A DNA stretch of 22,161 bases from a virus: IMG/VR virus record IMGVR_UViG_3300021335_000103, positions 1-22,161 of that record; one strand, given 5' to 3'. The first letter of the stretch is position 1. Every line of letters begins with the position of its first letter. This document shows positions 4,162 to 21,741 of the stretch, in pieces. The notes beneath the pieces were generated by a model. The model was not told where the DNA came from. It made no database searches and saw nothing but the letters and a program-made list of their open reading frames with translations. A program made the translations under genes and the position numbers.

Positions 4162-5175
4162 ATGTCTAACGAAGAGCAGAAAGACGAGTTGGTGTATGAC
4201 CGCATGCCCGGATCGGATGCACCAGAAGATTCAGCTGCAGAGCAGCTTGATTTGAATTTTGGACTGGGCGAAGAGCCTACGGAGGAGCCAGAAGATGAAG
4301 AAGTTGTTGCGGAAGCTGAAGAAGCTCCAGTTGAAGCTGTTGAGGAAGCTGAAGAACCTGTGGCAGAAGACGATTCGCCTACTCTCGGAGATCAAACGCC
4401 GGTAACTGAGGCCGCCGAAGAGCCTGAAACACCTGTTGCGGAGGAACCGCGCAAGCACATGGTGCCTAAATCACGCCTTGACGAGGTGTTGGCTAAGCAG
4501 AAAGCGCTGGAAAAACAGCTCGATGAGCTGCGAGCGCAGAAGCAGGAGCCGGGTGAAGCGCCAGAAGCCTACGATTTTGACGCGAAAGAGGTTGAATACC
4601 AGAATTTGGTACTCGACGGCGAGGCTCAGAAGGCCGCAGCTCTCCGAAAAGAAATCCGATCGGCAGAGAGGGCGCAGCTAGAGTACGAATTTAGCTCAAA
4701 AATCGGCGAATCCGTGTCTCAAAGCCAGCAAGCCACTGCTTTACAGCAGGCTGCATCGGAATTAGAGGATAATTTTCCTGTTTTTAACAGAAATTCCGAT
4801 CAATACAACGAAGGTTACACCCAAGAAGTCATCGATTTGCGTGATGCCTTCATCATGAAAGGCGAAAACCCCGTTGCAGCGCTAACAAAGGCCGCAAAAT
4901 TCGTCCTTCGCGAGTATGACTTGGTTGATATGGGCGAAGTAGCCGCAGCACCGTCGCTTTCTGCTGAGGCAGCACCCCGCGTAGACGAAGTTGCTAAGAA
5001 ACGGGCTGAAGTTACCCGAAAACTGAAAGCTGCAGAGGCTCAACCGCCCGAAATGCCGGGTGAGTCGTCTACTGCGCGTGGAGAGAAAGCCTTAGACATC
5101 GCTTCCATGACGGAAGACGAGTTCAATGCACTGCCGGAAGCAACGCTGAGACGATTACGCGGAGATATTCTGTAA
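4162..5175 (+). CDS. Scaffold-like acidic head assembly protein
   Basis: 337 residues. Residues 1-105 are extremely Glu-rich and apparently disordered. Residues about 108-140 form a likely coiled coil (KSRLDEVLAKQKALEKQLDE), and later parts are helical and Gln/Ala-rich. The C-terminus ends with a short charged helical segment (TEDEFNALPEATLRRL). This composition, the length and the place between portal and major capsid gene match phage scaffolding proteins, which guide capsid assembly through a C-terminal helix and are then removed. There is no visible protease fused to it. A good ribosome site (AGGAG at 4149-4153, eight-base spacer) supports the ATG at 4162. I recognise the role from context and composition, not from a defined family signature, so an internal virion protein remains possible. 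Confidence 0.75.
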   Translation: MSNEEQKDELVYDRMPGSDAPEDSAAEQLDLNFGLGEEPTEEPEDEEVVAEAEEAPVEAVEEAEEPVAEDDSPTLGDQTPVTEAAEEPETPVAEEPRKHMVPKSRLDEVLAKQKALEKQLDELRAQKQEPGEAPEAYDFDAKEVEYQNLVLDGEAQKAAALRKEIRSAERAQLEYEFSSKIGESVSQSQQATALQQAASELEDNFPVFNRNSDQYNEGYTQEVIDLRDAFIMKGENPVAALTKAAKFVLREYDLVDMGEVAAAPSLSAEAAPRVDEVAKKRAEVTRKLKAAEAQPPEMPGESSTARGEKALDIASMTEDEFNALPEATLRRLRGDIL

Positions 5176-5441
5176 TGCCAGCAAAAAAAGACCCGAAGTT
5201 AGCGCGTGCAGGCGTTAGCGGCTACAACAAACCGAAACGAACGCCTAGTCACCCGACTAAGAAGTTCGTTGTTGTCGCAAAGCAGGGCAACAAGACAAAA
5301 ACCATTCGTTTTGGCGACGCCAAGATGACCATCAAGAAAAGTCAGCCCGGACGACGAAAGTCTTTCAGGGCACGACATCGATGTGACACAAGCCCACCTA
5401 GCAAACTAACTGCACGGTACTGGTCGTGTAAAAAATGGTAA
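5175..5441 (+). CDS. Small basic conserved phage protein (KRTPSHPTK family)
   Basis: 88 residues, starting with ATG overlapping the scaffold stop by one base (TAATG). It is strongly basic. Residues 19-36 read KPKRTPSHPTKKFVVVAK, followed by TIRFG (43-47) and RRKSFRARHRC (60-70), ending in YWSCKKW. I recall this arrangement in small uncharacterised proteins of aquatic phages and some large DNA viruses; the function is unknown to me. H69, C70 and C85 could form part of a metal site. It is the first of six tiny genes lying between scaffold and capsid genes, so a structural or DNA-binding role in the virion is plausible but inferred. Confidence 0.8.
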   Translation: MPAKKDPKLARAGVSGYNKPKRTPSHPTKKFVVVAKQGNKTKTIRFGDAKMTIKKSQPGRRKSFRARHRCDTSPPSKLTARYWSCKKW

Positions 5442-5451
5442 GGAGATAGTT

Positions 5452-5562
5452 ATGTTTAAGCCCTGTGCAACCTGTACAACCAAAGCCGCATGTAAGAAGG
5501 CCGGTAAGTGTAAAAAACGGTCTAAAGCCAAAGCCCCAGCACGCAAAGCTCGGGGTTACTAG
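5452..5562 (+). CDS. 36-residue Cys- and Lys-rich mini-protein
   Basis: ATG at 5452 follows a strong ribosome site (AGGAG at 5441-5445, six-base spacer) and the frame closes at TAG 5560-5562. The product begins MFKPCATCTTKAACKKAGKC: cysteines at 5, 8, 14 and 20, then a tail of Lys, Arg and Ala. It has 13 Lys/Arg and no Asp or Glu in 36 residues. Four closely spaced cysteines suggest a minimal zinc knuckle with a basic nucleic-acid-binding tail; this is inference. The ribosome site and the one-base gap to the next start argue that it is a real gene despite its size. I do not recognise a named family. Confidence 0.65.
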   Translation: MFKPCATCTTKAACKKAGKCKKRSKAKAPARKARGY

Positions 5563-5563
5563 C

Positions 5564-5653
5564 ATGCATAACGGGAAACCTTGCAGCTGCAGCAAAAGCA
5601 GCAAAAAGAAACCGAAGAAAAAGTCCACAACTCAACGAAAGAAGAGGTACTAA
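5564..5653 (+). CDS. 29-residue Lys-rich mini-protein with CxC
   Basis: ATG at 5564 lies one base after the stop of the preceding mini-gene and the frame ends at TAA 5651-5653. The same frame is open further upstream from a GTG at 5465, but that start would overlap almost the whole preceding gene, so the ATG is preferred. The product has C7 and C9 (CSC) and then an almost pure Lys/Ser/Arg tail: 12 Lys/Arg and no acidic residue in 29. A weak GGGG at 5552-5555 may serve as ribosome site; coupling to the upstream stop is likely. Nucleic-acid binding is a guess from charge. Confidence 0.5.
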   Translation: MHNGKPCSCSKSSKKKPKKKSTTQRKKRY

Positions 5654-5654
5654 C

Positions 5655-5855
5655 ATGATCCCAGCACAAGTAAAGCAAGCATTTAAGTCACGGACCGTGC
5701 AGTACGGCGTTGCGATCGCTGTTCTCTCTGTATTGCAGGGGTTTATCGGGTTTTTGCCCGCTAATCCAGCGGTTCAGGCGATGATTGGGTGCGCAATGGC
5801 CAGCGGTATCGTGGTTTTGCGTTTTATGACCACTCAACCAGTAAGTAGTAAGTGA
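5655..5855 (+). CDS. Small two-helix membrane protein, possibly holin-like
   Basis: 66 residues. Hydrophobic helices at about 15-33 and 38-57 are joined by a short PANP turn, with basic residues near the N-terminus and the ending VVLRFMTTQPVSSK. This shape and the LRF-TTQP ending occur in small uncharacterised phage membrane proteins. It starts one base after the previous stop (GAGG at 5644-5647, seven-base spacer) and its own stop overlaps the next ATG (TGATG). It could be a small holin or a membrane component of the virion or lysis system, but a clearer holin sits next to the endolysin at 18736. It is the only non-basic product in this cassette. Confidence 0.7.
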   Translation: MIPAQVKQAFKSRTVQYGVAIAVLSVLQGFIGFLPANPAVQAMIGCAMASGIVVLRFMTTQPVSSK

Positions 5856-6013
5856 TGCCTGCAAAAAAGAAGAAAGCGAACGACGCATGTGCGCGGAAGG
5901 TCAAGTCCCGTTATAAGGTCTGGCCATCTGCGTACGCGTCAGGTGCAGTTGCCAAGTGTCGCAAGGTAGGCGCTAAGAACTGGGGTAACAAAAGTGGCCG
6001 TAAGAAAAAGTAA
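5855..6013 (+). CDS. 52-residue basic protein (KSRYKVWPSAYASGA family)
   Basis: ATG at 5855 overlaps the preceding stop (TGATG); stop TAA at 6011-6013. The product contains CARKVKSRYKVWPSAYASGA (residues 12-31) followed by CRKVGAKNWGNK. I recall this motif as very conserved in tiny proteins of aquatic phages and some large DNA viruses, with no established function known to me. It has 18 Lys/Arg in 52 residues and two conserved-looking cysteines, C12 and C35. The strong motif match makes this a confident gene although it is very short. Its end overlaps the next gene by 20 bases. Confidence 0.8.
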   Translation: MPAKKKKANDACARKVKSRYKVWPSAYASGAVAKCRKVGAKNWGNKSGRKKK

Positions 6014-6251
6014 GAAGGGCGCTGCTCTTAGAAAGTGGTTTAAAGAGGACTGGGTAGACGTAAAGACCGGTAAAGCCTGTGGCCGTAAGTCTGCTAAGGG
6101 GAAAAGTAAGCGCCCGTACCCGTCCTGTAGACCAAAAGCCGTTGCAGCGAAGATGACCAAGGCAGAAAAAGCTTCCTCTGCGAGACGTAAGACCGGCCCT
6201 GCCAAGATCAAACATGCTGTTACTGCATCAGGTAGGCGCAGGAAGAAGTAG
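5994..6251 (+). CDS. 85-residue basic protein (LRKWFKEDWVDVKTGKACG family)
   Basis: GTG start at 5994, overlapping the previous gene by 20 bases; stop TAG 6249-6251. Residues 12-30 read LRKWFKEDWVDVKTGKACG and residues 41-47 read PYPSCRP, followed by a Lys/Arg/Ala tail. I know this combination from a widespread family of uncharacterised small proteins in phages and large DNA viruses; I am not certain of its Pfam number. There are 30 Lys/Arg and only four acidic residues. C29 and C45 form a plausible metal-binding or disulfide pair. It closes the mini-gene cassette just upstream of the capsid leader. Role unknown. Confidence 0.82.
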   Translation: MAVRKSKKGAALRKWFKEDWVDVKTGKACGRKSAKGKSKRPYPSCRPKAVAAKMTKAEKASSARRKTGPAKIKHAVTASGRRRKK

Positions 6252-6263
6252 TGCTTGCGTCTT

Positions 6264-6285
6264 AATATTAGTGACGCTAATATAC
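6264..6285 (+). promoter_or_regulatory. Promoter-like dyad TATTAG-N5-CTAATATAC, copy 1
   Basis: The arms ATATTAG (6265-6271) and CTAATAT (6277-6283) form a 7-base dyad with a five-base centre TGACG, followed by AC. The same layout recurs at 19470-19489, in the only other long gap. It lies 220 bases before the capsid start. A sigma70 reading is possible here (TTGCGT at 6255-6260, 17 bases, TAATAT at 6278-6283) but the second copy lacks a -35 box. The centre and right side (TGACGCTAATATACGAAG) also loosely resemble the SP6 RNA polymerase promoter core GTGACACTATAGAAG. A phage-specific late promoter or operator is inferred. Confidence 0.55.
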
Positions 6286-6505
6286 GAAGTACATTCGTCC
6301 GTCAGCACGATAGCTGATCGCCCCGTAGGCGTTAAAAACGAATCTCGCCTGCAGAGGCGTAAAACAAGCCGAGGTCGCCCCTCGTTAATAAAGCGCTAGT
6401 TCGTCGCCTCACGATACGAGGAAACGGATTAGCCGCTCCTTTAAGTCGGCTAATAGTTGCAGCTCTGCTGCATGTTGTTATTTGTCTATTTAATGGAGGC
6501 CCATC
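6286..6505 (+). other. Hairpin-rich non-coding leader of the capsid gene
   Basis: 220 bases without a convincing gene. Successive short inverted repeats can be read: TCAGC/GCTGA (6302-6317), CGCC/GGCG (6319-6331), CGCCT/AGGCG (6346-6359), CGAGG/CCTCG (6370-6384), CCTC/GAGG (6407-6421), ATTAGCCG/CGGCTAAT (6428-6454, eight bases, 11-base loop) and TGCAG/CTGCA (6458-6472). The last is followed by a T-rich run and then the capsid ribosome site GGAGG at 6495-6499. The region may be a structured 5' untranslated leader, a small phage RNA, or a terminator for the upstream cassette. I see no tRNA cloverleaf. Confidence 0.5.
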
Positions 6506-7651
6506 ATGGCTTTAACTAATTTCGGTATGCTCACTGGCGACCAGTTACAGACTTGGTCCCGTGATTTCTGGCGTGTTGCCCGCAACATGTCTTTCGTCAA
6601 CCAGTTCGCAGGAACTGGCCAAAACGCTCTCGTTCAGCGCGTAACTGAACTCACTAAGTCAGAGAAAGGAACCAAGGCGAACATCACCTTGCTTGCTGAC
6701 ATGACTGGTGACGGTATCACCGGTGACAACACTCTGGAAGGCAACGAAGAAGCACTCCGCGCCTACGATATCACTATCGAGTTGGACCAGCTCCGATTCG
6801 CTAACCGTATCGCTGGCCGAATGGCTGACCAGAAGACTGTAGTTAACTTCCGTGAGCAGTCTCGCGACGCTCTTGCTTATGCAATGGCTGACCGTATGGA
6901 CCAGCTCTCGTTCTTGACGCTCTCTGGTGTTGCATACACGCACAAGACTAACGGTGGCCTTCGTGCTACTTCCGCAACCGCTGGTCACGAGTTGGTTGAC
7001 CTTGAGTTCGCATCTGACGTATCTGCGCCTACTGGCGATCGTCACCGTCGTATCTCAGGTACTAGCATCTCTGCTGGCGACACTACTGCTGTTACAGCTA
7101 CTGACAAGCTTGGCTACAAGCACATTGTTGAGCTGAAGGCATACGCTAAGGACAACTACATCCGTGGTATCCGAGGCGCTGGTAACGACGAGATCTTCCA
7201 CATGTTCGTTACTCCACAGCAAATGGCCAACCTGAAGCTCGATTCGGACTTCTTGGCTAACGTACGTAACGCTGGCGTTCGCGGTCAGGCTAACTCTCTG
7301 TTCTCAGGCTCTGCGAGCTTGATGGTAGACGGCGTCATGATCCACGAGTTCCGTCACGTATTCAGCACTGAAGGCGCTACCACTGGTACTTCTTCAAATG
7401 CTGGCGCGGCTGGCTACAAGTGGGGCGCAGATGCAGACGTAAGCGGAGCACGTGCTCTGTTCTGCGGTGCTCAGTCGCTCGCAATGGCTGATATCGGCCT
7501 CCCCGATATCGTTGAGGATACTTTCGACTACGAGAACCAAGCTGGTATCTCAATCGGCAAGATCTTCGGCCTTCGCAAGCCTAAGTACAACAGTGACGTA
7601 AGCGGATCAGTCCAAGACTTTGGCGTGATCTGTCTCGACACTGCGCAGTAA
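6506..7651 (+). CDS. Major capsid protein, N4 gp56-like family
   Basis: 381 residues, normal for the family. It forms the icosahedral shell. Residues 68-84 read GDGITGDNTLEGNEEAL, the signature region of N4 gp56-type capsid proteins, followed by an IELDQLRFANRIAG stretch. The C-terminal part has ALFCGAQSLAMA, then VEDTFDYENQAGISIGKIFG, and ends DFGVICLDTAQ, all typical of that family. There is no N-terminal propeptide or scaffold fusion, consistent with a separate scaffold gene at 4162. Start ATG 6506 has a strong GGAGG at 6495-6499 with a six-base spacer. A structured leader upstream and a strong hairpin downstream suggest expression as an abundant, separately tuned message. Confidence 0.93.
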   Translation: MALTNFGMLTGDQLQTWSRDFWRVARNMSFVNQFAGTGQNALVQRVTELTKSEKGTKANITLLADMTGDGITGDNTLEGNEEALRAYDITIELDQLRFANRIAGRMADQKTVVNFREQSRDALAYAMADRMDQLSFLTLSGVAYTHKTNGGLRATSATAGHELVDLEFASDVSAPTGDRHRRISGTSISAGDTTAVTATDKLGYKHIVELKAYAKDNYIRGIRGAGNDEIFHMFVTPQQMANLKLDSDFLANVRNAGVRGQANSLFSGSASLMVDGVMIHEFRHVFSTEGATTGTSSNAGAAGYKWGADADVSGARALFCGAQSLAMADIGLPDIVEDTFDYENQAGISIGKIFGLRKPKYNSDVSGSVQDFGVICLDTAQ

Positions 7652-7658
7652 GACAGGC

Positions 7659-7680
7659 AAGCCCCTCTTCGGAGGGGCTT
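7659..7680 (+). terminator. Strong UUCG-loop hairpin after the capsid gene
   Basis: A perfect nine-base stem, AAGCCCCTC / GAGGGGCTT, closes a TTCG tetraloop with the extra-stable C(UUCG)G geometry. It begins eight bases after the capsid stop and is followed by ACTTCTTCT, a weak T-rich tail. It can act as a partial terminator or as a 3' block to RNA decay that keeps capsid mRNA high relative to downstream genes. The next gene starts 20 bases later with its own good ribosome site. Confidence 0.85.
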
Positions 7681-11244: not shown

Positions 11245-13305
11245 ATGGCACTCGGTGATTTTGGTGGTGGTTTACTTGCAGGTATGCAGGGTGCCCAAGC
11301 GTTTGCTCAGCAGCGACGCGATAATAAGTACCGGCAAGATGTACTGGAGTTCGATCGTCAGAAGCAGCAGGAGAACATTAGGCAGTTCAACGAGTCTATA
11401 AAAATCGATCAACAGAACGCTGACACCAACTCTAGGTTAGCGACCGTTTCTGAAGGCAACTTAGAAATATCCCAAGCAGCAGAAAAAAGAACTGCCAGAG
11501 ATGACGCGCGCAATCAAGACACTCAACGGGCAGGTGACTACTATGTCCGTGCCGGTAAGCTTGGGTACGTTTCGGCGCAAGACCACACTAAGTTGGACGA
11601 AAAAGTTCTTGCTGGGGGGTTAGCCGCCGGGGATAGGAACGCCGATCAGTTCGCGCTAGATGTCCTTGAGAATGGTTCATTGCCTCGTCCTGAAGGGTTC
11701 AGATACACAGAAATACGCAGAGATGAAAACGGCGGCATAAGCGTCGTGGGTGAGTATGAAGATGGCACGATGGGTGTTCTTACCGAGAGAGGCACTATCG
11801 AAGCGTCCGACACAGTCGTAGTTCTAACCCCTGAGCAGGCTGCAAAGGCTATATCAGACGAATGGGTGACCTACCGTGTCATAGAGGGGGCACAAGGCAG
11901 AGCTGGCGCTGCTTATATGGCGCAGATGGGGGTTAATGACGCAGACATTAATGCTGCAAATGCCGCTGCAGATGCACAAGCCATAGTTACTACACAGATT
12001 GATGCGCAGGGTGACCCCGCAGCGTCAAGAAGCTTTCGTAATCTACTAGCCTCAGCAGAGACGGAGGAAGAAAAGAGACTTCTTGTACGGCAGACAGCTG
12101 AAGACTTTGGGATTGATATACCTGATGCGGAGCCTGATGACAGCACTCGCTTTAGTGGGCGGGTCAAGACGCTTCAAGACGCGATCACTCGCCTGACCAA
12201 CCGAAGGGCCACTACTAAGTCAGCTCCTGCTAAACAATCAATAGACCTCGAAGTCGACAAACTTCGAGAAGAGCTTGCGACTCTGCAGCAAGAAGAAGCG
12301 AATATTCGGACTGCACGCGGCACCGCAGGCAAAACACCTGTCATGGATACTGACGCTTGGAACGACTTCGAACAGTCCGTTATCACACGCGTAGACGGGC
12401 TGTCCCCAGAGGAATTAGACGCTCTAGTAGATTCTGGTGAGCTGAGACTAACTTCATCGCAGATCAGTGCGATGGGTCAGCGCATGCAAGAAGCTGGCGT
12501 AGAGAAAATATCAGATATCGCCAAGCTGCCTACTAGAGAGCAGTTGGCCGCAAGAGCTTTGCTGTCAGTCGTTGCACCTGATGATAAGGCCCGCGAACGC
12601 GCACGCGCAGAGATGAGTAACCTGAAGAGTTCAGGTCGCGCCGACGCGTCCGAATCTGATTTGTATAAGGCAGAGACTGATCGTATCAAAGCAAACGCGA
12701 GCGAAGTTAGCGCTTTAGCAGCCCTGAATAATTCACGTACCAGCTTTGCTAAGTACGTTGATGGGATCGATAAGGACGGAAACACACGACTCTACCGTGC
12801 GGGACAGCTTGCAAAAGAAGCGCTGGAGAGTATGACGACTCGATTCCGAGACCCTGAGCGCGCTGATCAACCGAACAAAAATTGGCGGTCGGCGCTGCAA
12901 GGGTTCAATGACGACCTATCTGTGATTCAAGTTCAGTCGGCTCAGTTTCAAAATGACCCGCAGGCAATGGCCTTGATTAACGAGTCGATAAACGCAGGTC
13001 TTAGTACTGCCATCGCGACGTTTGTTCAGTTCGGGCCAAGCGCTGGTTTTGGGGCACGACTGAAGTCGTTCTTCTTGGACGATGCAAACCCACAGGGTAC
13101 AGACTTCGATCTATCACGTGTCCGCGTAGATGACCCTGAAAACCCCACAGAGTTTATTTACCTGTCATACGCCACCGATGCAGATGGGAACAGAACAGGA
13201 GAGCAACAAGGCAAGCGAGTGAAGATCAGCGACTTCGAAAAGCTAGGTAAGCGCCTTTCGGATCGCGTCAAGCAGGCAGCGATCGCGAATACGCAAAATG
13301 GCTAA
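11245..13305 (+). CDS. Internal virion (ejection-type) protein 3, large helical
   Basis: 686 residues. The start MALGDFGGGLLAGMQGAQAF, a Gly/Ala amphipathic helix, followed by a Gln/Arg/Asn-rich helix, is common in podovirus internal proteins. The rest is mostly helical and charged, with a likely coiled coil near residues 305-360 (RLTNRRATTKSAPAKQS, then EVDKLREELATLQQEEANIR). No enzyme motif is visible. The start has GGGGGCGG just upstream. Its end overlaps the next gene by eight bases, so the two are probably translated in coupled fashion and act together, like the T7 gp15-gp16 pair. That comparison is by position and size, not by sequence similarity I could verify. Confidence 0.6.
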   Translation: MALGDFGGGLLAGMQGAQAFAQQRRDNKYRQDVLEFDRQKQQENIRQFNESIKIDQQNADTNSRLATVSEGNLEISQAAEKRTARDDARNQDTQRAGDYYVRAGKLGYVSAQDHTKLDEKVLAGGLAAGDRNADQFALDVLENGSLPRPEGFRYTEIRRDENGGISVVGEYEDGTMGVLTERGTIEASDTVVVLTPEQAAKAISDEWVTYRVIEGAQGRAGAAYMAQMGVNDADINAANAAADAQAIVTTQIDAQGDPAASRSFRNLLASAETEEEKRLLVRQTAEDFGIDIPDAEPDDSTRFSGRVKTLQDAITRLTNRRATTKSAPAKQSIDLEVDKLREELATLQQEEANIRTARGTAGKTPVMDTDAWNDFEQSVITRVDGLSPEELDALVDSGELRLTSSQISAMGQRMQEAGVEKISDIAKLPTREQLAARALLSVVAPDDKARERARAEMSNLKSSGRADASESDLYKAETDRIKANASEVSALAALNNSRTSFAKYVDGIDKDGNTRLYRAGQLAKEALESMTTRFRDPERADQPNKNWRSALQGFNDDLSVIQVQSAQFQNDPQAMALINESINAGLSTAIATFVQFGPSAGFGARLKSFFLDDANPQGTDFDLSRVRVDDPENPTEFIYLSYATDADGNRTGEQQGKRVKISDFEKLGKRLSDRVKQAAIANTQNG

Positions 13306-16300
13306 GTCGTATATTGAAAGCCTATTTGATGACATTGACCCAAATGTAAGTAGCGGCGTTAGGGGGCCGCGTCTCGCAAGCCCAACTCCCACAGGCGTCG
13401 GCGAAGTATTTGGGGCTGGTGTTAAAAGCGGCGCAGAAGGGCTTGCTGCTGATACTGAATACTTCAAGGCGCTGTACAACACTCTAACCGGAGACGACGA
13501 AGCAGCTGCAGCAAACGTACGCAGAGCACGAGTCACGGAGCAGGCAGCAGCAGCCCCCCTTCAAAATGTAGAGACCTTCGAAGAGTTCTTAAACGAGCCT
13601 ACCCTGACGGGTTTTGTGACACAGGTAGCTAAGTCGACGGGACAGCTTCTCCCCAGCGCTGTTAGCAGCATTTCTGGAGCAGGCGTCGGCGCAATTGCAG
13701 GACGCGCTGCGTTTTCGCTGGGCGGTAAAAAAGCGGTAGAGAAACTCGTTAAGGATTCAGTGGAGCGGACGGTTAAAGGCGTAGCCGACCCAGACGAAAA
13801 AGCTATCGCAGAGGCTTCTTATAATTATATGAAGCGCGGTGCTCTGGGCGGCGCTTTTGGCGCTGAATACGTACCACTGTCTGGCTCTAACCTATCTGAA
13901 GCACTTGACTCGGGTAGAGAGCTAGACACGGGTAACGCCATACGGGCGGCAACAGTCGGCGTCCCGCAAGCGGCTATTGGAGTAGGCGGTGAAGCAGCTT
14001 TACTCAAACTTATAGGTAATGTCGCTACAAAGCGAAGCGTTACGGACGGCGACATATTCGCCAATTTGGCGAAAGACATAGGTACTACCTCGCTAAAAGG
14101 CGCTGCGATTGAAGGCTCCACCGAGTTTGTGCAGGAAGGGATTTCTGTAATCAATCGTATGTCGATGGACGACACGTTCGATGCCGAGCAAGCGCAGCTC
14201 CGTTTGGCAGAGTCTGCGTTTGCAGGTTTCTTCGGCGGGGGAGCAGCCGGAGGCGTGGCTGGTGGGGTAGTGCCAGTGGTTAGAGCAGCCGCGCCCGCTG
14301 CAACACGTGCCGCTGATGCAGCCATAGACAAGACGGCGAATGTAGTCGACAAAGCTAAGCGCATGCTTGATGAGGCACGCGGCCAAAGAGTAGAAGAGGC
14401 GATTGTACGAGAGCAGTCTAATTCTGCTGGCTACAATGAGACCAGCCCAGAGCCTGCTTCTGATATAAACGCTCAGCTAAACGCGATGGTAGACCCCACT
14501 AGCGAAAAGAAAGCAGTGTGGGTTGCTGGTAATGAAGCGCAGTACAGCGCGCGTACCAATAAAGTGACGCCTGTCGAAGTGAATGGTAAGTCAGCGTTTG
14601 CTGCATTCGTTCCCGGCAGAGGCACGATCATATCCACGAATAAAGACGTGGTGAGCGAAGTGGTTGCTGGCCAAGCGTCGGACGCCGTGGTTGGCGCGGC
14701 TCTTGGCTACTCAAATACTAAGGACTACGGTAACGCGACGTTAGTCGCACGTGCTACCGATTCTGAAGGCAACATTGTTTCTGAAGAACTGACCACTGCT
14801 GAGAACGCAGCGGAGGCACTGGCTGCAGCACGCGGGTTAGCCCCGGAGGGCGGTAGTGCGACTATTGTAGATGCGCAGCAAGCTCTCGAAGAGCGCGCCA
14901 AGAAGGTCAACAAAGAAGCGAAGGTCAACCCTGTTGACGACGATCCTGACTCGTTCGAAGAGGCTGATCCTAACGAAACGCCTACTTTTGGCTCTGAGTT
15001 TGAAGAACTCAGCGCAATGCGCGACGAGATGCAGAACACGCAGGAAGTTGAAGGAGAGCGTGTTGAGTCTGGTAGGTACGGAGCGAAACAGAATCCGACG
15101 CAGACGTTTGATAATGAGGCAGATGCTCGACAAGAGTATGCCGACGAGTTCGGCGAAACAGACTTTGATGCAGAAGACATGCAGGGCGTAACTGCTGGGG
15201 CGTTAAAAGCAGCAGCACGCGCGAGTCGAGAGAACCCTAACGCCGTTATTGAGCTTGTAAAAGAGGGCAACGAGTTTGTTGTCTACAAAACTTTCTACGA
15301 CAAGCTGTATGCCGATGGCCCCGGTCGGAAGTTCACGCTACCAGAGTTCTTGGAGGCACAAGCAAGGCGAGCAGCCAAAGCTAAACCTAATAGGCAGAGT
15401 GTAATTGTTGAGCGCCCAGACGGTACAAAGATGCGTGCCAGCCTTGTGTCTTTGGTCAACGCTGGTCGTCGTTTAGTAGAGAACCGCGAGGGCAGCCGTT
15501 TCGAAGGTGAGCAGGGTCGAGCGGATATGCTAAAGCAAGGACTCTCAGAGATCCTTGCCGACTTAGCTATTGCTGGTTATGACGTAACAGACATGAACGG
15601 CGTGTCTCTGCTAAAACAAGCCAATTACACTAATGGCAAGTTCAATGGCCTCAATATGGTGGCTGGGCAGCTTGGCGACACCCAGTATCGCCTTAACTTT
15701 CTGCAAAGCGCACGTTTCGTAGAGACATCAAATGAGTCGGATGTAGCAGTTCGTCTTAAGTACAACGACGATAGAGGCGAGACCGTTGCAAAAGAGGTAC
15801 GAACCAGTTTCGACCAAGCCGAACAAGTCGCTGAGCAGTTGATGGCAGAAGGCGCAACTTTCGATCCAGAAAGGGCGAAAAATGGTTTCTATGTTGATCT
15901 TGGAGACCCACGTGACCGAGATCAGGGTGATGGTGATTTTGATATTCAACAAGAGTCCACTTTAGACGACGCAAGCCCAGAACCTAACCAGCGTTCGCGC
16001 GGTGGTGCACCGGCTAACTTAGGGCCAGCAAATCGGGCAGACGTAGAGGCCGCTCAGTCTACACCGGAGCCTGAAGTAACTCCTGAGCCTGCACCCGAAG
16101 CACCGACGAGAGACCCATCTAAGTTCGGTGACCCGATGGTCAACTCCTCTATAGATCAGCTGCTAGAGCGGCTGAAGATGAAAGAGGCACCGCGCGTATT
16201 TAACTTTAGCCGCCTCAGTGAGATGACAGACGATCAGCTCAGGGCAGCTGTTGGAGATCAAGACTTCCCTGCCGCGAAACAGATCGTCGAGCGGATGAAG

Positions 16301-18727
16301 GCCAATGATCAGATAGGTGGTAGCTACTTCCGTGGTGTGATCATGGTGCGGGATGTCCCCGGCAATCCTCTTAGTACTATGATGACCGCCGCCCATGAGA
16401 TTGGGCATCACTTGTACCAGACAGAGCAGCAAGCAGCTCTTGCCAACAACGCACTACGTCCACGACTGCTACAGGCGTACGAGCGCCACCCCGAGCACAA
16501 AACATATGTCGAACGATACGCGGAGAAGGGGTTCGAAGAGTGGTACGCCGATCAGGTATCACGTTGGGCTACAAAACAGTACATAAATCGCACTGCTAGA
16601 AACATGCCCGAGCGGCACTTCAAAGCAGTTGCCAAGAGGCTTAAAGCTGCTTGGCGTGCAATGGCTCGCGGGTTCCGTATCAGAAAAGGGCCGAAAGCTC
16701 CTGAATTTGAGCAGTACATCGAGCAGGTTGTTGGTACTCGTAGGGAGGCGACCAAGGAGTCCCTTGGCTTCCAAGAAAAAGCGTTAGTCGCAGCTGTCAA
16801 CGAAGCAGTTGTAAAAGAAGGCGGCGAAGCCCTTGCTAACCATTGGAAGCGCCAGCTCGGCAAGCGCGGTAAGCACCTCATGAAGTTTGTCGCAACTGCC
16901 GACGGCGTATTGCGTATGTACGGCGGCGACAAGATAGCTGACATGTTCTATGTGCGCGCACAAGATGAAAAAGGCGGCGGACGTCTTGGCATGCTCAAAG
17001 CAGCTGCCCTGAAGAAAGATGAGCTGATACAGAAATTCCAAGAAGATGTTGGGCCGCTTGACTCCCAAGAAGTGATCGATGCGCTACGTAGAGCCGCGAA
17101 CGATGACATGGCTACGTCAGAGCTAGATGATCTCGCGAAGAAGGTGAGGCTTTTCTTAGACGAGATGTACACGGACTATATCGAGCCGTCTAACTCTGAC
17201 ATAGGTCGCCGAGAAAACTTCTTCCCAGTCGCGCTCAATCTGCTGGAGATCGCAGAAAGACCCGATGAGTTCAAGAGTCTACTCCTAGAACAGAACCCAG
17301 ATATATCACCCAAGGAGGCGGACAAAGTAATCCATCGACTACGCCAGTACGCCCAGACTATTCAAGGAGAACCGGTAGTTCTACCGGATGATGCGGACCC
17401 TGCTAGTGAGATGGAGAAGTCTCGGATACTTACTGCCAACATCAATCAGGCAGATTTACGCAATGCTGGGTTCGCAATGGAACCAGCAGACGCCCTTGTT
17501 AACTACGTCTCGCACATGGTTAAGCGCGTCGAGTTCAACAAGGCTACGAACAACAGAGCTGACTTAGATGCAGAGCTTGCCAAGCTAGATCCCGAAGAAC
17601 GTGCTGCCACGATGCAAGTAATCAATACTTACTTGGGCTATCAGGCAAACCCGATCAGCCCATTCTGGCGTCAGGTAAACAGCTGGGGGCAGTGGATCCA
17701 GTTTGTGACATTGCTACCACTGGCGACTATAGGCTCCTTGCCCGAACTAGCTGGGCCGGTAATCAACTCCAAAGAGTTCTCTTTGGACACCTTTGGCCTA
17801 GCTATGAAAGAGCTAGTGTCTACTATCCGAGACCGTACGGAAGCAAAACAGTTTGCGAAGGACATCGGTGTAGTGACGAACGAAGCTGCTGCAAACGCTT
17901 GGATTACTCAGGCAGAGCAGGACTATATGACTGACACCTCTCGTCAGTGGACCGATAAGTTCTTCCGAGCGATTGGGCTGGATTTCTACACCAAGTTTAC
18001 TCGTGAGTTCGCAGCAGGTATGGGCCGACAGTTCATACTGAATCACGCGAAAGGCACGAATCCTAGGTCCGAGCGCTACCTACGAGAGCTGGGCTTAACC
18101 AAAGCAGACGTAGATGCGTGGGTTAAGAGCGGTCAGAAACTATCTACGCCTGAAGGTAAGAAAGTAAAACAAGCAGTTCAGCGGTTTGTTGAGTCTTCTA
18201 TCTTACGTCCTAACTCGGCAGAGCGACCTATATGGGCGTCTGACCCGCGTTGGGCGTTGGTGTGGCAGCTCAAGTCTTACTTCTATGCTTACTCCAAGGT
18301 CATAACAGGCGGCGTTTTACGGGAAGCAAAGTCTCGTGCAAAGGAAGGGCAAGGCGGTATCGAGGAGGCCAGTGCGACACTTGCAGTCTTTGGTCTGACT
18401 GCTGTTGCCACTATGCCCTTAGCGATGCTCGGCATGGAGCTGCGCGAGTACATCAAGTATGGAGCAGCGTGGGCACTTCCCGGTATTGATGCGAGTACGC
18501 GCTACTTCCGCACTGACCGTATGGATTGGGACGAGTACCTATTTGAGACCGTGGATAAATCAGGCTTTTTAGGACCGCTAAGCCTCGGGGTCATGGCTAA
18601 CCAGTCAGCTGAGTACGGTAAATCACCAATCATTTCGTTGTTAGGTCCAACGGCAGAAACGGTAGATGAGGCCATTAGGAACGGTTGGCGTGTAGATAAG
18701 ACTATTCGAGACAGGATGATTCTTTAG
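13298..18727 (+). CDS. Giant ejection-type protein with buried zinc-metalloprotease motif
   Basis: 1809 residues. Residues about 106-142 and 301-335 are Gly/Ala-rich and membrane-active looking. A long charged middle with Pro/Glu linkers (near 550-570 and 890-950) follows. HEIGHH at 1033-1038 is a zincin HExxH core; a third ligand could be E1080 or E1081 in FEEWYADQ about 43 residues later. The C-terminal 650 residues are helical and contain two hydrophobic stretches (about 1463-1490 and 1695-1713). Known podovirus giants such as T7 gp16 carry a transglycosylase for wall passage; here a peptidase motif occupies the corresponding gene position. The protease may trim virion partners or open the host envelope. 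The start overlaps the previous stop. No frameshift is seen. Function is inferred. Confidence 0.75.
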   Translation: MAKSYIESLFDDIDPNVSSGVRGPRLASPTPTGVGEVFGAGVKSGAEGLAADTEYFKALYNTLTGDDEAAAANVRRARVTEQAAAAPLQNVETFEEFLNEPTLTGFVTQVAKSTGQLLPSAVSSISGAGVGAIAGRAAFSLGGKKAVEKLVKDSVERTVKGVADPDEKAIAEASYNYMKRGALGGAFGAEYVPLSGSNLSEALDSGRELDTGNAIRAATVGVPQAAIGVGGEAALLKLIGNVATKRSVTDGDIFANLAKDIGTTSLKGAAIEGSTEFVQEGISVINRMSMDDTFDAEQAQLRLAESAFAGFFGGGAAGGVAGGVVPVVRAAAPAATRAADAAIDKTANVVDKAKRMLDEARGQRVEEAIVREQSNSAGYNETSPEPASDINAQLNAMVDPTSEKKAVWVAGNEAQYSARTNKVTPVEVNGKSAFAAFVPGRGTIISTNKDVVSEVVAGQASDAVVGAALGYSNTKDYGNATLVARATDSEGNIVSEELTTAENAAEALAAARGLAPEGGSATIVDAQQALEERAKKVNKEAKVNPVDDDPDSFEEADPNETPTFGSEFEELSAMRDEMQNTQEVEGERVESGRYGAKQNPTQTFDNEADARQEYADEFGETDFDAEDMQGVTAGALKAAARASRENPNAVIELVKEGNEFVVYKTFYDKLYADGPGRKFTLPEFLEAQARRAAKAKPNRQSVIVERPDGTKMRASLVSLVNAGRRLVENREGSRFEGEQGRADMLKQGLSEILADLAIAGYDVTDMNGVSLLKQANYTNGKFNGLNMVAGQLGDTQYRLNFLQSARFVETSNESDVAVRLKYNDDRGETVAKEVRTSFDQAEQVAEQLMAEGATFDPERAKNGFYVDLGDPRDRDQGDGDFDIQQESTLDDASPEPNQRSRGGAPANLGPANRADVEAAQSTPEPEVTPEPAPEAPTRDPSKFGDPMVNSSIDQLLERLKMKEAPRVFNFSRLSEMTDDQLRAAVGDQDFPAAKQIVERMKANDQIGGSYFRGVIMVRDVPGNPLSTMMTAAHEIGHHLYQTEQQAALANNALRPRLLQAYERHPEHKTYVERYAEKGFEEWYADQVSRWATKQYINRTARNMPERHFKAVAKRLKAAWRAMARGFRIRKGPKAPEFEQYIEQVVGTRREATKESLGFQEKALVAAVNEAVVKEGGEALANHWKRQLGKRGKHLMKFVATADGVLRMYGGDKIADMFYVRAQDEKGGGRLGMLKAAALKKDELIQKFQEDVGPLDSQEVIDALRRAANDDMATSELDDLAKKVRLFLDEMYTDYIEPSNSDIGRRENFFPVALNLLEIAERPDEFKSLLLEQNPDISPKEADKVIHRLRQYAQTIQGEPVVLPDDADPASEMEKSRILTANINQADLRNAGFAMEPADALVNYVSHMVKRVEFNKATNNRADLDAELAKLDPEERAATMQVINTYLGYQANPISPFWRQVNSWGQWIQFVTLLPLATIGSLPELAGPVINSKEFSLDTFGLAMKELVSTIRDRTEAKQFAKDIGVVTNEAAANAWITQAEQDYMTDTSRQWTDKFFRAIGLDFYTKFTREFAAGMGRQFILNHAKGTNPRSERYLRELGLTKADVDAWVKSGQKLSTPEGKKVKQAVQRFVESSILRPNSAERPIWASDPRWALVWQLKSYFYAYSKVITGGVLREAKSRAKEGQGGIEEASATLAVFGLTAVATMPLAMLGMELREYIKYGAAWALPGIDASTRYFRTDRMDWDEYLFETVDKSGFLGPLSLGVMANQSAEYGKSPIISLLGPTAETVDEAIRNGWRVDKTIRDRMIL

Positions 18728-18735
18728 GAGGCACC

Positions 18736-19110
18736 ATGCTGAAGATGTTACTAGGACCAGTCGCCGATCTCGCTTCTGGTTACCTGCAAAACAAAGCAGA
18801 AGAGAAGAAGCTCCGCCACCAAGCCAAAATGCAGGTCATCGCTAACGGCGCTGAGTGGGAGTCCAAGATGGCTGATGCGTCGTCATCGAGCTGGAAAGAC
18901 GAATTTTGGACCCTTGTACTAGCAGCCCCAGTCTTCATGATCGGCTACGCCATCGCAATGGACGACGTGGCCGTGATCGAGCGCGTTGACTTGGCCTTCG
19001 CTGCTCTCAATACCCTGCCGGAGTGGTACCAGTATTTGTTGTTTTTAGCAGTAAGCGCGAGCTTCGGCATACGCGGCGCTGACAAGTTGATGAACTTAAG
19101 GAAGAAGTGA
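18736..19110 (+). CDS. Holin, 3TM/GTA-holin-like
   Basis: 124 residues. The N-terminal third is helical and charged (LQNKAEEKKLRHQAKMQVIA), then comes SSSSWKDEFWT (49-59), a hallmark I associate with the three-helix holins shared with gene transfer agents. Hydrophobic helices lie at about 57-75 and 95-113, separated by a loop ending LPEWYQ; the last helix runs into FGIRGADKLM. Holins open the inner membrane at a set time to let endolysin through. A strong ribosome site, AGGAGG at 18726-18731 with a four-base spacer, overlaps the previous stop. The next gene, a cytosolic peptidase without signal peptide, overlaps its stop, the classic lysis pair. Confidence 0.87.
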   Translation: MLKMLLGPVADLASGYLQNKAEEKKLRHQAKMQVIANGAEWESKMADASSSSWKDEFWTLVLAAPVFMIGYAIAMDDVAVIERVDLAFAALNTLPEWYQYLLFLAVSASFGIRGADKLMNLRKK

Positions 19111-19457
19111 TGTTTAAGTATTTCAGTATGGAAGAGTTCAACTGCCAAGAGACTGGCGAGAACGAAATGTCTGAGGAATTTATCCGCAAACTGGATGAGC
19201 TGAGAGAGAAGTGTGGCTTTGCCTTCACTGTTACCAGTGGTTACAGGAGCACGTCTCATAGTATTGAGGCCAAGAAGGCTCGTCCGGGGCGGCATACCGA
19301 AGGTATCGCAGCTGATATCGCTGTCTCCAACGGCTTCGAGCGCATGAATATCGTCCACGAAGCACTGAAGATGGGTTGTTTCAATGGCATCGGTATCGCC
19401 AAATCGTTTGTCCACGTAGACATTAGACCTGATCAGCGGGTCATGTGGGTCTATTAG
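19110..19457 (+). CDS. Endolysin, M15-type peptidase
   Basis: 115 residues from ATG 19110, which overlaps the holin stop (TGATG) and has AAGGA at 19098-19102 with a seven-base spacer; a GTG three bases earlier is also possible. The fold matches the Peptidase_M15_3 group of peptidoglycan peptidases: SGYRS at 43-47, zinc ligands H62 and D69 in HTEGIAAD, and H102 with D104 in FVHVD. All expected catalytic positions are present and the length is normal for a single-domain enzyme with no cell-wall-binding module. It lacks a signal peptide, so it needs the upstream holin for access to the wall. It should cut peptide cross-links of the Gram-negative-type wall. Confidence 0.93.
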   Translation: MFKYFSMEEFNCQETGENEMSEEFIRKLDELREKCGFAFTVTSGYRSTSHSIEAKKARPGRHTEGIAADIAVSNGFERMNIVHEALKMGCFNGIGIAKSFVHVDIRPDQRVMWVY

Positions 19458-19513: not shown

Positions 19514-19888
19514 ATGGCATATTCCGACACTCTCAATCTAGTCACGGGCGATACGTTGCCAGAGCTGACTTTCACACTGAAGGACAGCAACACAGCGGCC
19601 ACCGGATTGACCCTTGACCAGAACAACGACGCTACGTGGGCACCTATTGATTTGACAGGTGCTTCAGTGAATCTGCGTATCCGTGAGCTTGGCAGCACGA
19701 CTGTAAAAAGCACTTTGACTTGCGCTGTTACAGACGCGACAGGCGGCAAGGTGGCAACTGACTTTCCTGTAGGCACGTTAGATACGGCAGGTACTTTCGA
19801 GGCTGAACTTGAAATCACATTTGCTGGCGGCGGCAAGCAGACTGTTAACGACCTGATCAAGCTCAAAGTAAGGAGCGACTTCGATTAA
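19514..19888 (+). CDS. Small beta-rich tail or fibre-associated protein
   Basis: 124 residues, almost all beta-strand-like: TGDTLPELTFTLKD near the start, IDLTGASVNLRIRELG in the middle, and FEAELEITFAGGGKQTVNDL near the end. The pattern resembles the single-domain N-terminal modules of phage baseplate or receptor-binding proteins (BppU-like), which attach fibres to the tail. AGGGAG at 19503-19508 with a five-base spacer supports the ATG. It is the first gene after the second promoter-like dyad and its stop overlaps the next start (TAATG), so it is probably co-translated with the repeat-fibre gene. Its precise role is inferred. Confidence 0.6.
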   Translation: MAYSDTLNLVTGDTLPELTFTLKDSNTAATGLTLDQNNDATWAPIDLTGASVNLRIRELGSTTVKSTLTCAVTDATGGKVATDFPVGTLDTAGTFEAELEITFAGGGKQTVNDLIKLKVRSDFD

Positions 19889-21741
19889 TGGCGATTAGGC
19901 TATTTGTTCACGCATCCAACATACGGGCGTCTGTCGAGTTTGACAGCCCGAAAGTAGTTGCGCCTGCGTTTCAGAGAGCCAGCGTATCGATTAGCCGCCC
20001 CACATATCAAACGGTCGTAACCTACACTGACCTGCAGGCGATGACTGCCTACCGACGTTTGATGACGTCAGTGAATTACCTCAACCTAAACACAACCGAT
20101 GTTGTGTTAGACCCTGATACCAAGAACCGATACTTCCGAGGCAGCGACGGCGAGTCGTTCGGGCTTACTGAGCAACACAGCATGTTGTTCACAAAGCGGC
20201 CCGACGATCAGGTCGATATGTTGGAGCTGGCAGCTTTAGGCGTCACTAAGCCGCAAACAGACAGTTTCGGCGTTACGGATCTTGCGACCGTTCTTCTTAT
20301 TATTAACCGGTTCTTTGAGGACAGCGTCGCGTTAGCCGAGGCTGCTGTCATTGAGACGGGCAAGGGTGTAGCTGACGCCGTTACATTAACTGAGTTTAGG
20401 TCTAAGTTTGTAGGCAAGGGGCTTGATGATGCCCCCATCCTAACCGAAGACCTCGACTACGATTTCGACAAGGCTCTTGCTGACACGACCAGCGTAACTG
20501 AATCGCTTGCTAGAACAGTGTCGTTTGTACGCGCCTTCCAAAACAGCACGTCCCTGTCTGATGCACCTGTGCTGCTTTTCGACAAAGCGCCATCCGACAG
20601 CGTCTCTGTATCAGAAGCGTTTAGTAGAGTAGTGCAGTTCCAGCGCACGTTTACCGACGCATTTACTATTGATGACTTGGCCACTGTAGGCGCGCTTGTC
20701 AAAGACACTACATCCACGAAAGGCAATGTGTTCGGCGTAAGCGACGTGCTGTCTAGGGTTGTGACCTTTAACCGTACGTTTACTGAGACAGCGACACTAT
20801 CTGAAGACGCCGTTCTCGATGTGAGCCAGCTAAAAACTGATGCGTTTACAGCGACGGACGATCATAGCTTTGCTCTCAGCAAGCCACTGTCAGAGACAGC
20901 GACTGTCAGCGACAGCCCCGCTATTGACTACAGCAGACCGGAAGATGACAGCCTATCAGTTACGGATAGCTTCTCTCGCGTTGTTGTTTCAGCACGCACC
21001 TTTAGCGACTCAACAAGTCTTTCAGAGTCAGCGGCACTGGAGCCAGAGCTTGCCAAGTCAGATAGTGTTGCTGTAACCGAGACGTTTGGTCGAGTAGTCA
21101 CCTCATTCAGAGACGTAACCGAAACTGTATCGTTCGCTGACACTGAATCACGGGACACGAGTCTTGGTAAAGAAGACACGGCCACTGTCGCAGACTCCTT
21201 CGACCGCGTAGTTACCTCTCAGCGCACGTTTACTGAAAGCGCTTCTGTGAGTGATGACCCATCACTGTTAGTCGAGCTACCACAGACAGAGGCTGTCGCC
21301 CTGTCGGATGCGTTCTCTCGTGTTGTCACATTCAGCCGTACATTTACAGATGCGTTTACGCTTGACGATGCAGCGACTGTAGGCGCACTAACTAAAGATA
21401 CCCAGTCCCAGAAAGGCAACGTCATTGGCGTGAGCGACGTGTTCAGCCGTGTGTTTGTAGCGTCTAGAGCCTTTGCTGACTCAGTATCTTTCAGTGACAG
21501 CGAAACGCTGAGCACAGGTCTTGGTAAGTCTGACACTGCAAATATCTCAGAGCAGGCGAGTATCGCCTTATCCACCCCCGAATCCGACTCTTTCTCTGTC
21601 TCAGAGCAGGAGTCTAAACAGATAAGCAAGGCACCCACTGATGCGGTATCGGTCAGTGAGTCTCTTGTTTTGGCTAAGAGGTCAACGGCCTCTTCCCTTT
21701 TAAACGCAGGTGCCATTAATTTCGCACCGATCAACAACTAG
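19888..21741 (+). CDS. Repeat-built tail fibre or adhesin
   Basis: 617 residues. Residues 1-115 look like a non-repetitive attachment domain. From about 120 to 600 the protein is a chain of degenerate half-repeats of roughly 18-20 residues that alternate between a form like SDSVSVSEAFSRVVQFQRTF and a form like TDSTSLSDSAALD. The repeats are rich in Asp, Ser, Thr and Val and lack Cys. A 38-residue stretch at 253-290 recurs at 484-521 with 31 identical positions. Such Ser/Thr/Asp repeats suggest an elongated beta-structured shaft. The last 20 residues are a short non-repeat end. ATG overlaps the preceding stop. I do not recognise a named family; fibre function is inferred from position and repeats. 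Confidence 0.7.
   Translation: MAIRLFVHASNIRASVEFDSPKVVAPAFQRASVSISRPTYQTVVTYTDLQAMTAYRRLMTSVNYLNLNTTDVVLDPDTKNRYFRGSDGESFGLTEQHSMLFTKRPDDQVDMLELAALGVTKPQTDSFGVTDLATVLLIINRFFEDSVALAEAAVIETGKGVADAVTLTEFRSKFVGKGLDDAPILTEDLDYDFDKALADTTSVTESLARTVSFVRAFQNSTSLSDAPVLLFDKAPSDSVSVSEAFSRVVQFQRTFTDAFTIDDLATVGALVKDTTSTKGNVFGVSDVLSRVVTFNRTFTETATLSEDAVLDVSQLKTDAFTATDDHSFALSKPLSETATVSDSPAIDYSRPEDDSLSVTDSFSRVVVSARTFSDSTSLSESAALEPELAKSDSVAVTETFGRVVTSFRDVTETVSFADTESRDTSLGKEDTATVADSFDRVVTSQRTFTESASVSDDPSLLVELPQTEAVALSDAFSRVVTFSRTFTDAFTLDDAATVGALTKDTQSQKGNVIGVSDVFSRVFVASRAFADSVSFSDSETLSTGLGKSDTANISEQASIALSTPESDSFSVSEQESKQISKAPTDAVSVSESLVLAKRSTASSLLNAGAINFAPINN
20236..21690 (+). repeat. Degenerate in-frame repeats of the fibre gene
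   Basis: Tandem imperfect coding repeats, with paired half-units of about 55-60 bases each. The clearest longer copy pair is 20644-20757 and 21337-21450 (38 codons, 693 bases apart): both encode RTFTDAFT, then DD, ATVGAL, KDT, KGNV and GVSDV in the same order. Third-base differences between copies are numerous, so the duplication is old or under protein-level selection rather than recent. Confidence 0.8.

Follow-up and report, generated by a model that had tools for sequence, protein, structure and literature searches.

The cassette and its neighbours

The window, by which we mean the whole stretch of DNA analysed (22,161 nucleotides, the entire IMG/VR record IMGVR_UViG_3300021335_000103), represents 22 kb of the genome of a marine tailed phage and encodes a P22-like portal (PF16510, 4e-123). 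Six short genes on its plus strand, here called g1 to g6, lie between a gene for a scaffold-like protein (4162-5175, plus strand), which has a weak match to the head scaffolding family phrog_8865 (8e-6) and a very acidic N-terminal half, and the gene for the major capsid protein (6506-7651, plus strand; Phage_capsid_3; PF13252, 1.8e-47; phrog_334, 1.5e-82). All six open reading frames described in the first-pass annotation as lying between scaffold and capsid are present, and the flanking matches support this placement. The first, g1 (5175-5441), encodes 88 residues with a net charge of +23 and is a member of phrog_7595 that resembles Tlr6F/DUF5754. It is followed by g2 (5452-5562; 36 residues, four cysteines), with matches to near relatives and a few weak hits beyond them, by g3 (5564-5653; 29 residues, two cysteines), with matches to near relatives only, and by g4 (5655-5855; 66 residues), a hydrophobic and probable membrane protein that is unlike the other five in type. 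The cassette ends with g5 (5855-6013; 52 residues, net charge +17), which contains a KVxPSAYAx motif and matches the N-terminal half of DUF5872 and a segment of phrog_727, and with g6 (5994-6251; 85 residues, net charge +26, GTG start), which contains a WFKEDWVD...CGR...YPxCRP motif and matches the C-terminal half of DUF5872. The start of g3 is uncertain, as its open frame reaches back to a GTG at 5465 (62 residues), and locus L029 has a different ORF in place of g4.

The genes are closely spaced, with 1-nucleotide overlaps between the scaffold stop and the g1 start and between g4 and g5, a 20-nucleotide overlap of g5 and g6, gaps of 1 nucleotide at g2/g3 and g3/g4, and a gap of 10 nucleotides at g1/g2. 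The first-pass annotation read such overlaps as the mark of a single translational unit; the cassette is not a unit of all six genes, the conserved kit being g1, g5 and g6. The net charges of the products are +23, +13, +12, +5, +17 and +26 from g1 to g6, and the cysteine counts are 2, 4, 2, 1, 2 and 2. The first-pass description of five very basic products with at least two cysteines each is therefore exact, with g4 (+5, one cysteine) as the sixth; the 36- and 29-residue products, g2 and g3, are indeed devoid of acidic residues, as is g4. Immediately 3' of the capsid gene there is a strong terminator-like hairpin (7659-7680), several weaker hairpins occur in the 254-nucleotide gap upstream of that gene (6252-6505), and an Rfam search of the window gave no match.

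Family relationships and predicted structure

The motifs of uncharacterised small proteins that the first-pass annotation saw in three of the products are borne out: g1 matches phrog_7595, g5 a phrog_727 segment, and g6 both phrog_23735 and the C-terminal half of DUF5872. The g1 match to phrog_7595 is full-length (6.1e-26; residues 2-88 on profile positions 2-96 of 96), and there is a further match to phrog_9979 (1.3e-5). The match of g1 to Tlr6F/DUF5754 (PF19058) is weak, at 14.9 bits under the Pfam gathering cut-off of 27.4; a fused g1 relative in locus L332 lies above that cut-off at 38.5 bits. Yutin et al. reported Tlr6F from almost every polinton-like virus, from several virophages and many giant viruses and from some phages, and saw no similarity to proteins of known function (PMC4642659). 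For g5, the match is to the PSAYAS module of phrog_727 (1.5e-17; profile positions 263-308 of 450), while g6 matches phrog_23735 (1.7e-10). On the 116 positions of DUF5872 (PF19197), g5 aligns to 4-43 and g6 to 49-90, with scores (15.1 and 26.7 bits, respectively) that are each below the cut-off of 27.5; distant relatives of g5 exceed it (44 bits in CRP-2). By these alignments, DUF5872, which is one protein in large DNA viruses, is g5 and g6 in a single chain, whereas the window has two overlapping genes. Comparison of g5 and g6 with the other modules gave no homology. In CRP-2 (L001, about 2308-2532) and CRP-207 (L091, 4001-4243), the g6 gene is missing from the GenBank annotation, and annotated short ORFs in other frames cover it.

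The cysteines of these proteins vary in a characteristic manner. Among 28 clusters, the g5 pair is C/C in 11, Y or W with Y in 16, and C/R in 1; the C-terminal pair of g1 is retained or lost jointly, and the pair in g6 is invariant. Four conserved metal ligands were not found in g1, g5 or g6, and a zinc-finger reading of g1 and g5 is not favoured because their cysteines are gained and lost in pairs rather than in fours. Such pairing would fit disulfide bonds, or residues packed in pairs, better than zinc binding. An AlphaFold2 model of g1 is of fair quality (pLDDT 78, pTM 0.62) and consists of a helix, a beta hairpin and two helices, for which searches of the PDB gave no counterpart (best E 2.9; no Z >= 2 with VIA-align). 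The model of g6 is poor (pLDDT 65) and too weak for a fold search. Sequence searches of the PDB returned nothing convincing, and the fold searches gave no match to a nucleic-acid-binding protein.

Conservation, linkage and interchange of g1, g5 and g6

We fetched 80 IMG/VR loci with g6, selected by likeness to g6 and not to g1 or g5, of which 9 belong to the phage type of the window and at least 45 to a second type whose portal and capsid are of different families from those of the window. Median identities between the window and the 45 phages of the second type are 90.9% for g1, 96.0% for g5 and 91.7% for g6; the same phages have nothing that matches the window's portal, scaffold or capsid or most of its remaining genes, and terL is 28% identical over about 40% of its length. 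Identity at four-fold degenerate sites is 0.31 for g1, 0.44 for g5 (overlap excluded) and 0.34 for g6, where codon use alone predicts about 0.26; for comparison, the values for most head genes among phages of the window's own type are 0.5-0.7. In relatives, pS for g5 and g6 is mostly 0.5-0.9 and pN about 0.01-0.1, with similar pN/pS for g1 save in the few loci, a minority, where g1 is divergent. Recent transfer of the cassette is ruled out as the source of the high identity by these nearly saturated silent sites, which, together with the few protein changes, indicate that the cassettes have long been apart while the proteins have stayed nearly constant. Judged from the substitution patterns, g1, g5 and g6 are under old and extreme purifying selection; neither of the refuting outcomes named in the first-pass annotation, a lack of conservation in relatives or a near-neutral dN/dS, was seen for them. 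Proteins of 52-88 residues that remain 91-96% identical despite changed capsid, portal and scaffold must be in contact with something invariant. For g2, g3 and g4, recognisable counterparts come mainly from near relatives, the weak g2-like hits aside, and in those relatives their pN is well under pS, for short genes in few loci.

Another 320 loci came from four additional IMG/VR scans in which distant relatives served as queries. Of the 320 loci in the four g6-based sets, 312 also encode g5 close to g6, mostly directly upstream. Beside this pair, the place of g1 can be taken by DUF6321 (PF19846): among 322 loci with the g5-g6 pair, g1 is present in the fetched flanks of 190, DUF6321 in those of 103, and both in none. 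When the loci are grouped into 38 clusters at 80% identity, 16 have g1, 17 have DUF6321, none has both and 5 have neither (Fisher p 1e-6, a guide only, as the clusters are still related), and on whole records the exclusivity has exceptions in 1 of 21 and 0 of 22. We conclude from this distribution that g1 and DUF6321 interchange as the third part beside g5-g6. The two share a weak RRKSFxAR segment (hhalign E 8e-4, probability 24%) but no convincing full-length homology.

Fusions tie the same modules together. In T4-like cyanophages, a single protein, encoded next to the terminase genes, has the order g6-g5-(CWKGY)-DUF6321, and a fused protein in locus L513 has g1 where others have DUF6321. The T4-GC119/phrog_727 protein of T4-like cyanophages (for example Bellamy gp123 and S-SM1 SSM1_115), encoded near the terminase, has g6-like, g5-like and DUF6321 modules in one chain; it differs from the window in that its modules are fused with linkers and DUF6321 stands in place of g1, and Bellamy gp123 has an additional DUF192 domain. 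A 706-residue protein in locus L332 combines g5 and g1 modules. On this evidence g1, g5 and g6 appear to be separated parts of one viral kit, with g2-g4 as local companions. A search of 84,980 prokaryote species genomes in GTDB gave at least 14 loci, a lower bound because the pattern used was narrow, with phage-like gene arrangements, and a plasmid search with g5 gave no match. The few prokaryote-genome loci, arranged as in phages, suggest that the kit is restricted to viruses.

In the T7-like Prochlorococcus phage P-SCSP2 and its uncultured kin, the kit occupies precisely the position that it has in the window, flanked by scaffold and capsid, and the head proteins of such podoviruses are of another family than those of the window. 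Loci of the L040 type have it after the portal gene, those of the L179 type between terL and portal, and CRP-7 and CRP-2 upstream of the terminase. In pelagiphage HTVC106P the kit is near a peptidase M15 gene, away from the annotated head genes, and in HTVC203P, too, it is not part of the annotated head module. The kit is thus usually, but not always, located among the head genes.

Several other genes recur in or near these loci. A tiny EF-hand-like ORF with the motif LKGNQKKxDxNKDGKISxEDF accompanies the kit in P-SCSP2 (L092, 3761-3886) and HTVC023P (L093, 4278-4643). Two more tiny basic modules, with the motifs HWMKxGxxYKLMK and KHYFKxGxxxKGATHKDAKG, adjoin it repeatedly (L040, 5640-5786, and L097, 4461-4604; L091, 4243-4389, and L098, 3052-3222). 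Directly 3' of g6 in L198, a 533-residue protein (4222-5823) has a match to ART-PolyVal (ADP-ribosyltransferase) below the cut-off, and a 1035-residue protein in L332 (2948-6055) joins a g6 module to LysM and L,D-transpeptidase domains.

Head proteins with the g1 domain and the proposed function of the kit

A search of a viral structure library located domains resembling g1 in proteins that bear the names XkdF, ChaB and ICP1 ORF125. The last of these (gp125), annotated as the capsid protease, has a Peptidase_S78_2 (XkdF) domain at residues 36-160, followed by a g1 domain that makes up the C-terminal 80 residues (whole-domain alignment by hhalign, probability 96.7, E 4.5e-10); g1 in the window is free-standing and has no protease domain. 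The protease gene of ICP1 is in an operon of head genes, which run from terL through portal, gp126, protease, scaffold and decoration to coat. The g1 domain of gp125 also matches phrog_220, described as 'minor head protein and DNA pilot', as does the 706-residue g5 and g1 protein of L332. Capsid proteases and minor head or DNA-pilot proteins are generally understood to function within the head. We regard the presence of the g1 domain on head proteins as the strongest pointer to the site at which the kit may act.

Virion data bear mainly on proteins with DUF6321. The 490-residue gp137 of S-CREM2, the C-terminal end of which is a DUF6321 module, was detected in the virion by mass spectrometry (4 peptides, 4% coverage; PMC10665884). 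S-SZBM1_192, another DUF6321 protein, is absent from the mass spectrometry list for S-SZBM1 (PMC9146016), and the paper on S-SM1 proteomics (PMC3037559) still calls the T4-GC119 protein 'hypothetical'. We left out of the evidence the 'structural protein' label given to T4-GC119 in S-B68, the basis of which is not stated. In the virion proteomes consulted we did not find g1, g5 or g6 themselves listed, and literature searches for virion proteomes of HMO-2011-type phages found none.

Sequence comparison establishes the domain identities, linkage, interchange, fusions and conservation, as well as the occurrence of the g1 domain on the capsid protease of ICP1. On this basis we favour a reading in which the kit is a nucleic-acid-binding unit of the head interior, and we give it roughly even chances. 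In such a unit, g5 and g6 would act together with a third part, either g1 or its substitute DUF6321. Being encoded among head genes, the kit would presumably be made late alongside them; the three would be in physical contact, the g1 domain may bring g5 and g6 into the head compartment or keep them there, and the target of the strongly basic, aromatic-rich modules would be the packaged genome, or else nucleic acid where packaging takes place. A head-interior function is probable because g1 resembles the C-terminal end of a protease that takes part in capsid building, and nucleic-acid binding is suggested by the charge, the aromatic content, the indifference to host and capsid type, and the head-interior carriers of the domain. 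Basic charge alone does not, however, demonstrate DNA binding. The first-pass proposal of packaged DNA-condensing or RNA-binding proteins is plausible and gains indirect support from the g1 domain on the ICP1 protease and its match to phrog_220.

The shared possession of the kit by viruses of very different hosts would also fit a universal target such as the ribosome or nucleic acid, and the proteins might then form an unpackaged cytoplasmic factor that binds nucleic acid or ribonucleoprotein late in infection and serves transcription, translation or genome protection. The location of the kit outside the annotated head module in HTVC106P and HTVC203P and the poor virion evidence from S-SZBM1 and S-SM1 are in keeping with this idea, which we nonetheless consider rather doubtful in view of the g1 domain on a capsid protease, the match to minor head and DNA-pilot proteins, and the repeated siting at scaffold and capsid or at the terminase. 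The kit might instead be an adaptor for procapsid assembly, the basic modules of which would bind the acidic scaffold, dock cargo such as protease, pilot protein or terminase, and exit with the scaffold, so that the target would not be nucleic acid. The kit does adjoin the scaffold gene, the scaffold of the window is very acidic, and in ICP1 the g1 domain is a C-terminal appendage of a protease encoded next to scaffold; extreme conservation in the face of unrelated scaffold sequences is, however, better explained by a constant ligand, and we judge an adaptor of this type to be improbable.

Decoration or cement proteins on the capsid surface could be expected among genes between scaffold and capsid, but a kit that stays constant while capsids change makes this role very unlikely, and ICP1 carries a separate decoration gene. 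In addition, the P-SCSP1u capsid consists of the major capsid protein alone, with no cement or decoration protein (PMC10575957), yet in P-SCSP1f, a phage closely related to it, a DUF6321 ORF comes immediately after the gene for the capsid. Despite their short, basic and low-complexity appearance, g1, g5 and g6 are hardly conceivable as spurious or hitch-hiking ORFs without function, a view that is refuted for these three by pN far below pS, nearly saturated silent sites, and conserved order and fusions, and less firmly for g2 and g3.

A broader form of the preferred head-interior reading, which we advance tentatively, is that the kit is a virus-specific counterpart of packaging proteins like histones or protamines, a basic three-part head-interior nucleoprotein kit of almost constant sequence that ignores capsid lineage. 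Marine phages of unrelated head types have it in common, and algal giant viruses and polinton-like viruses would carry it as fused or separate domains. The individual families were known already, although DUF5872 and DUF5754 are rarely mentioned in the literature that we searched and no mention of DUF6321 was found there; nor did we find the kit, its capsid-protease link, or any connection of Tlr6F/DUF5754 to g5/g6 partners or head proteins. All three of Tlr6F/DUF5754, DUF5872 and DUF6321 are spread over phages, and the first two also over large eukaryotic DNA viruses. Membership of one kit, substitution and the link to the protease tail turn three unknown families into one testable question.

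Elsewhere in the window, the 1809-residue product of 13298-18727 has a HEIGH motif like that of metallopeptidases and could be a large internal protein that is ejected. A 124-residue phrog_2524 protein and then an M15-type endolysin (phrog_894) follow at 18736-19457; few genes besides the kit are shared with the second phage type, and that for the endolysin (56% identity) is among them. The 617-residue product of 19888-21741, which has imperfect repeats of the type DSVSVSEAFSRVVxFxRTF, is probably a fibre.
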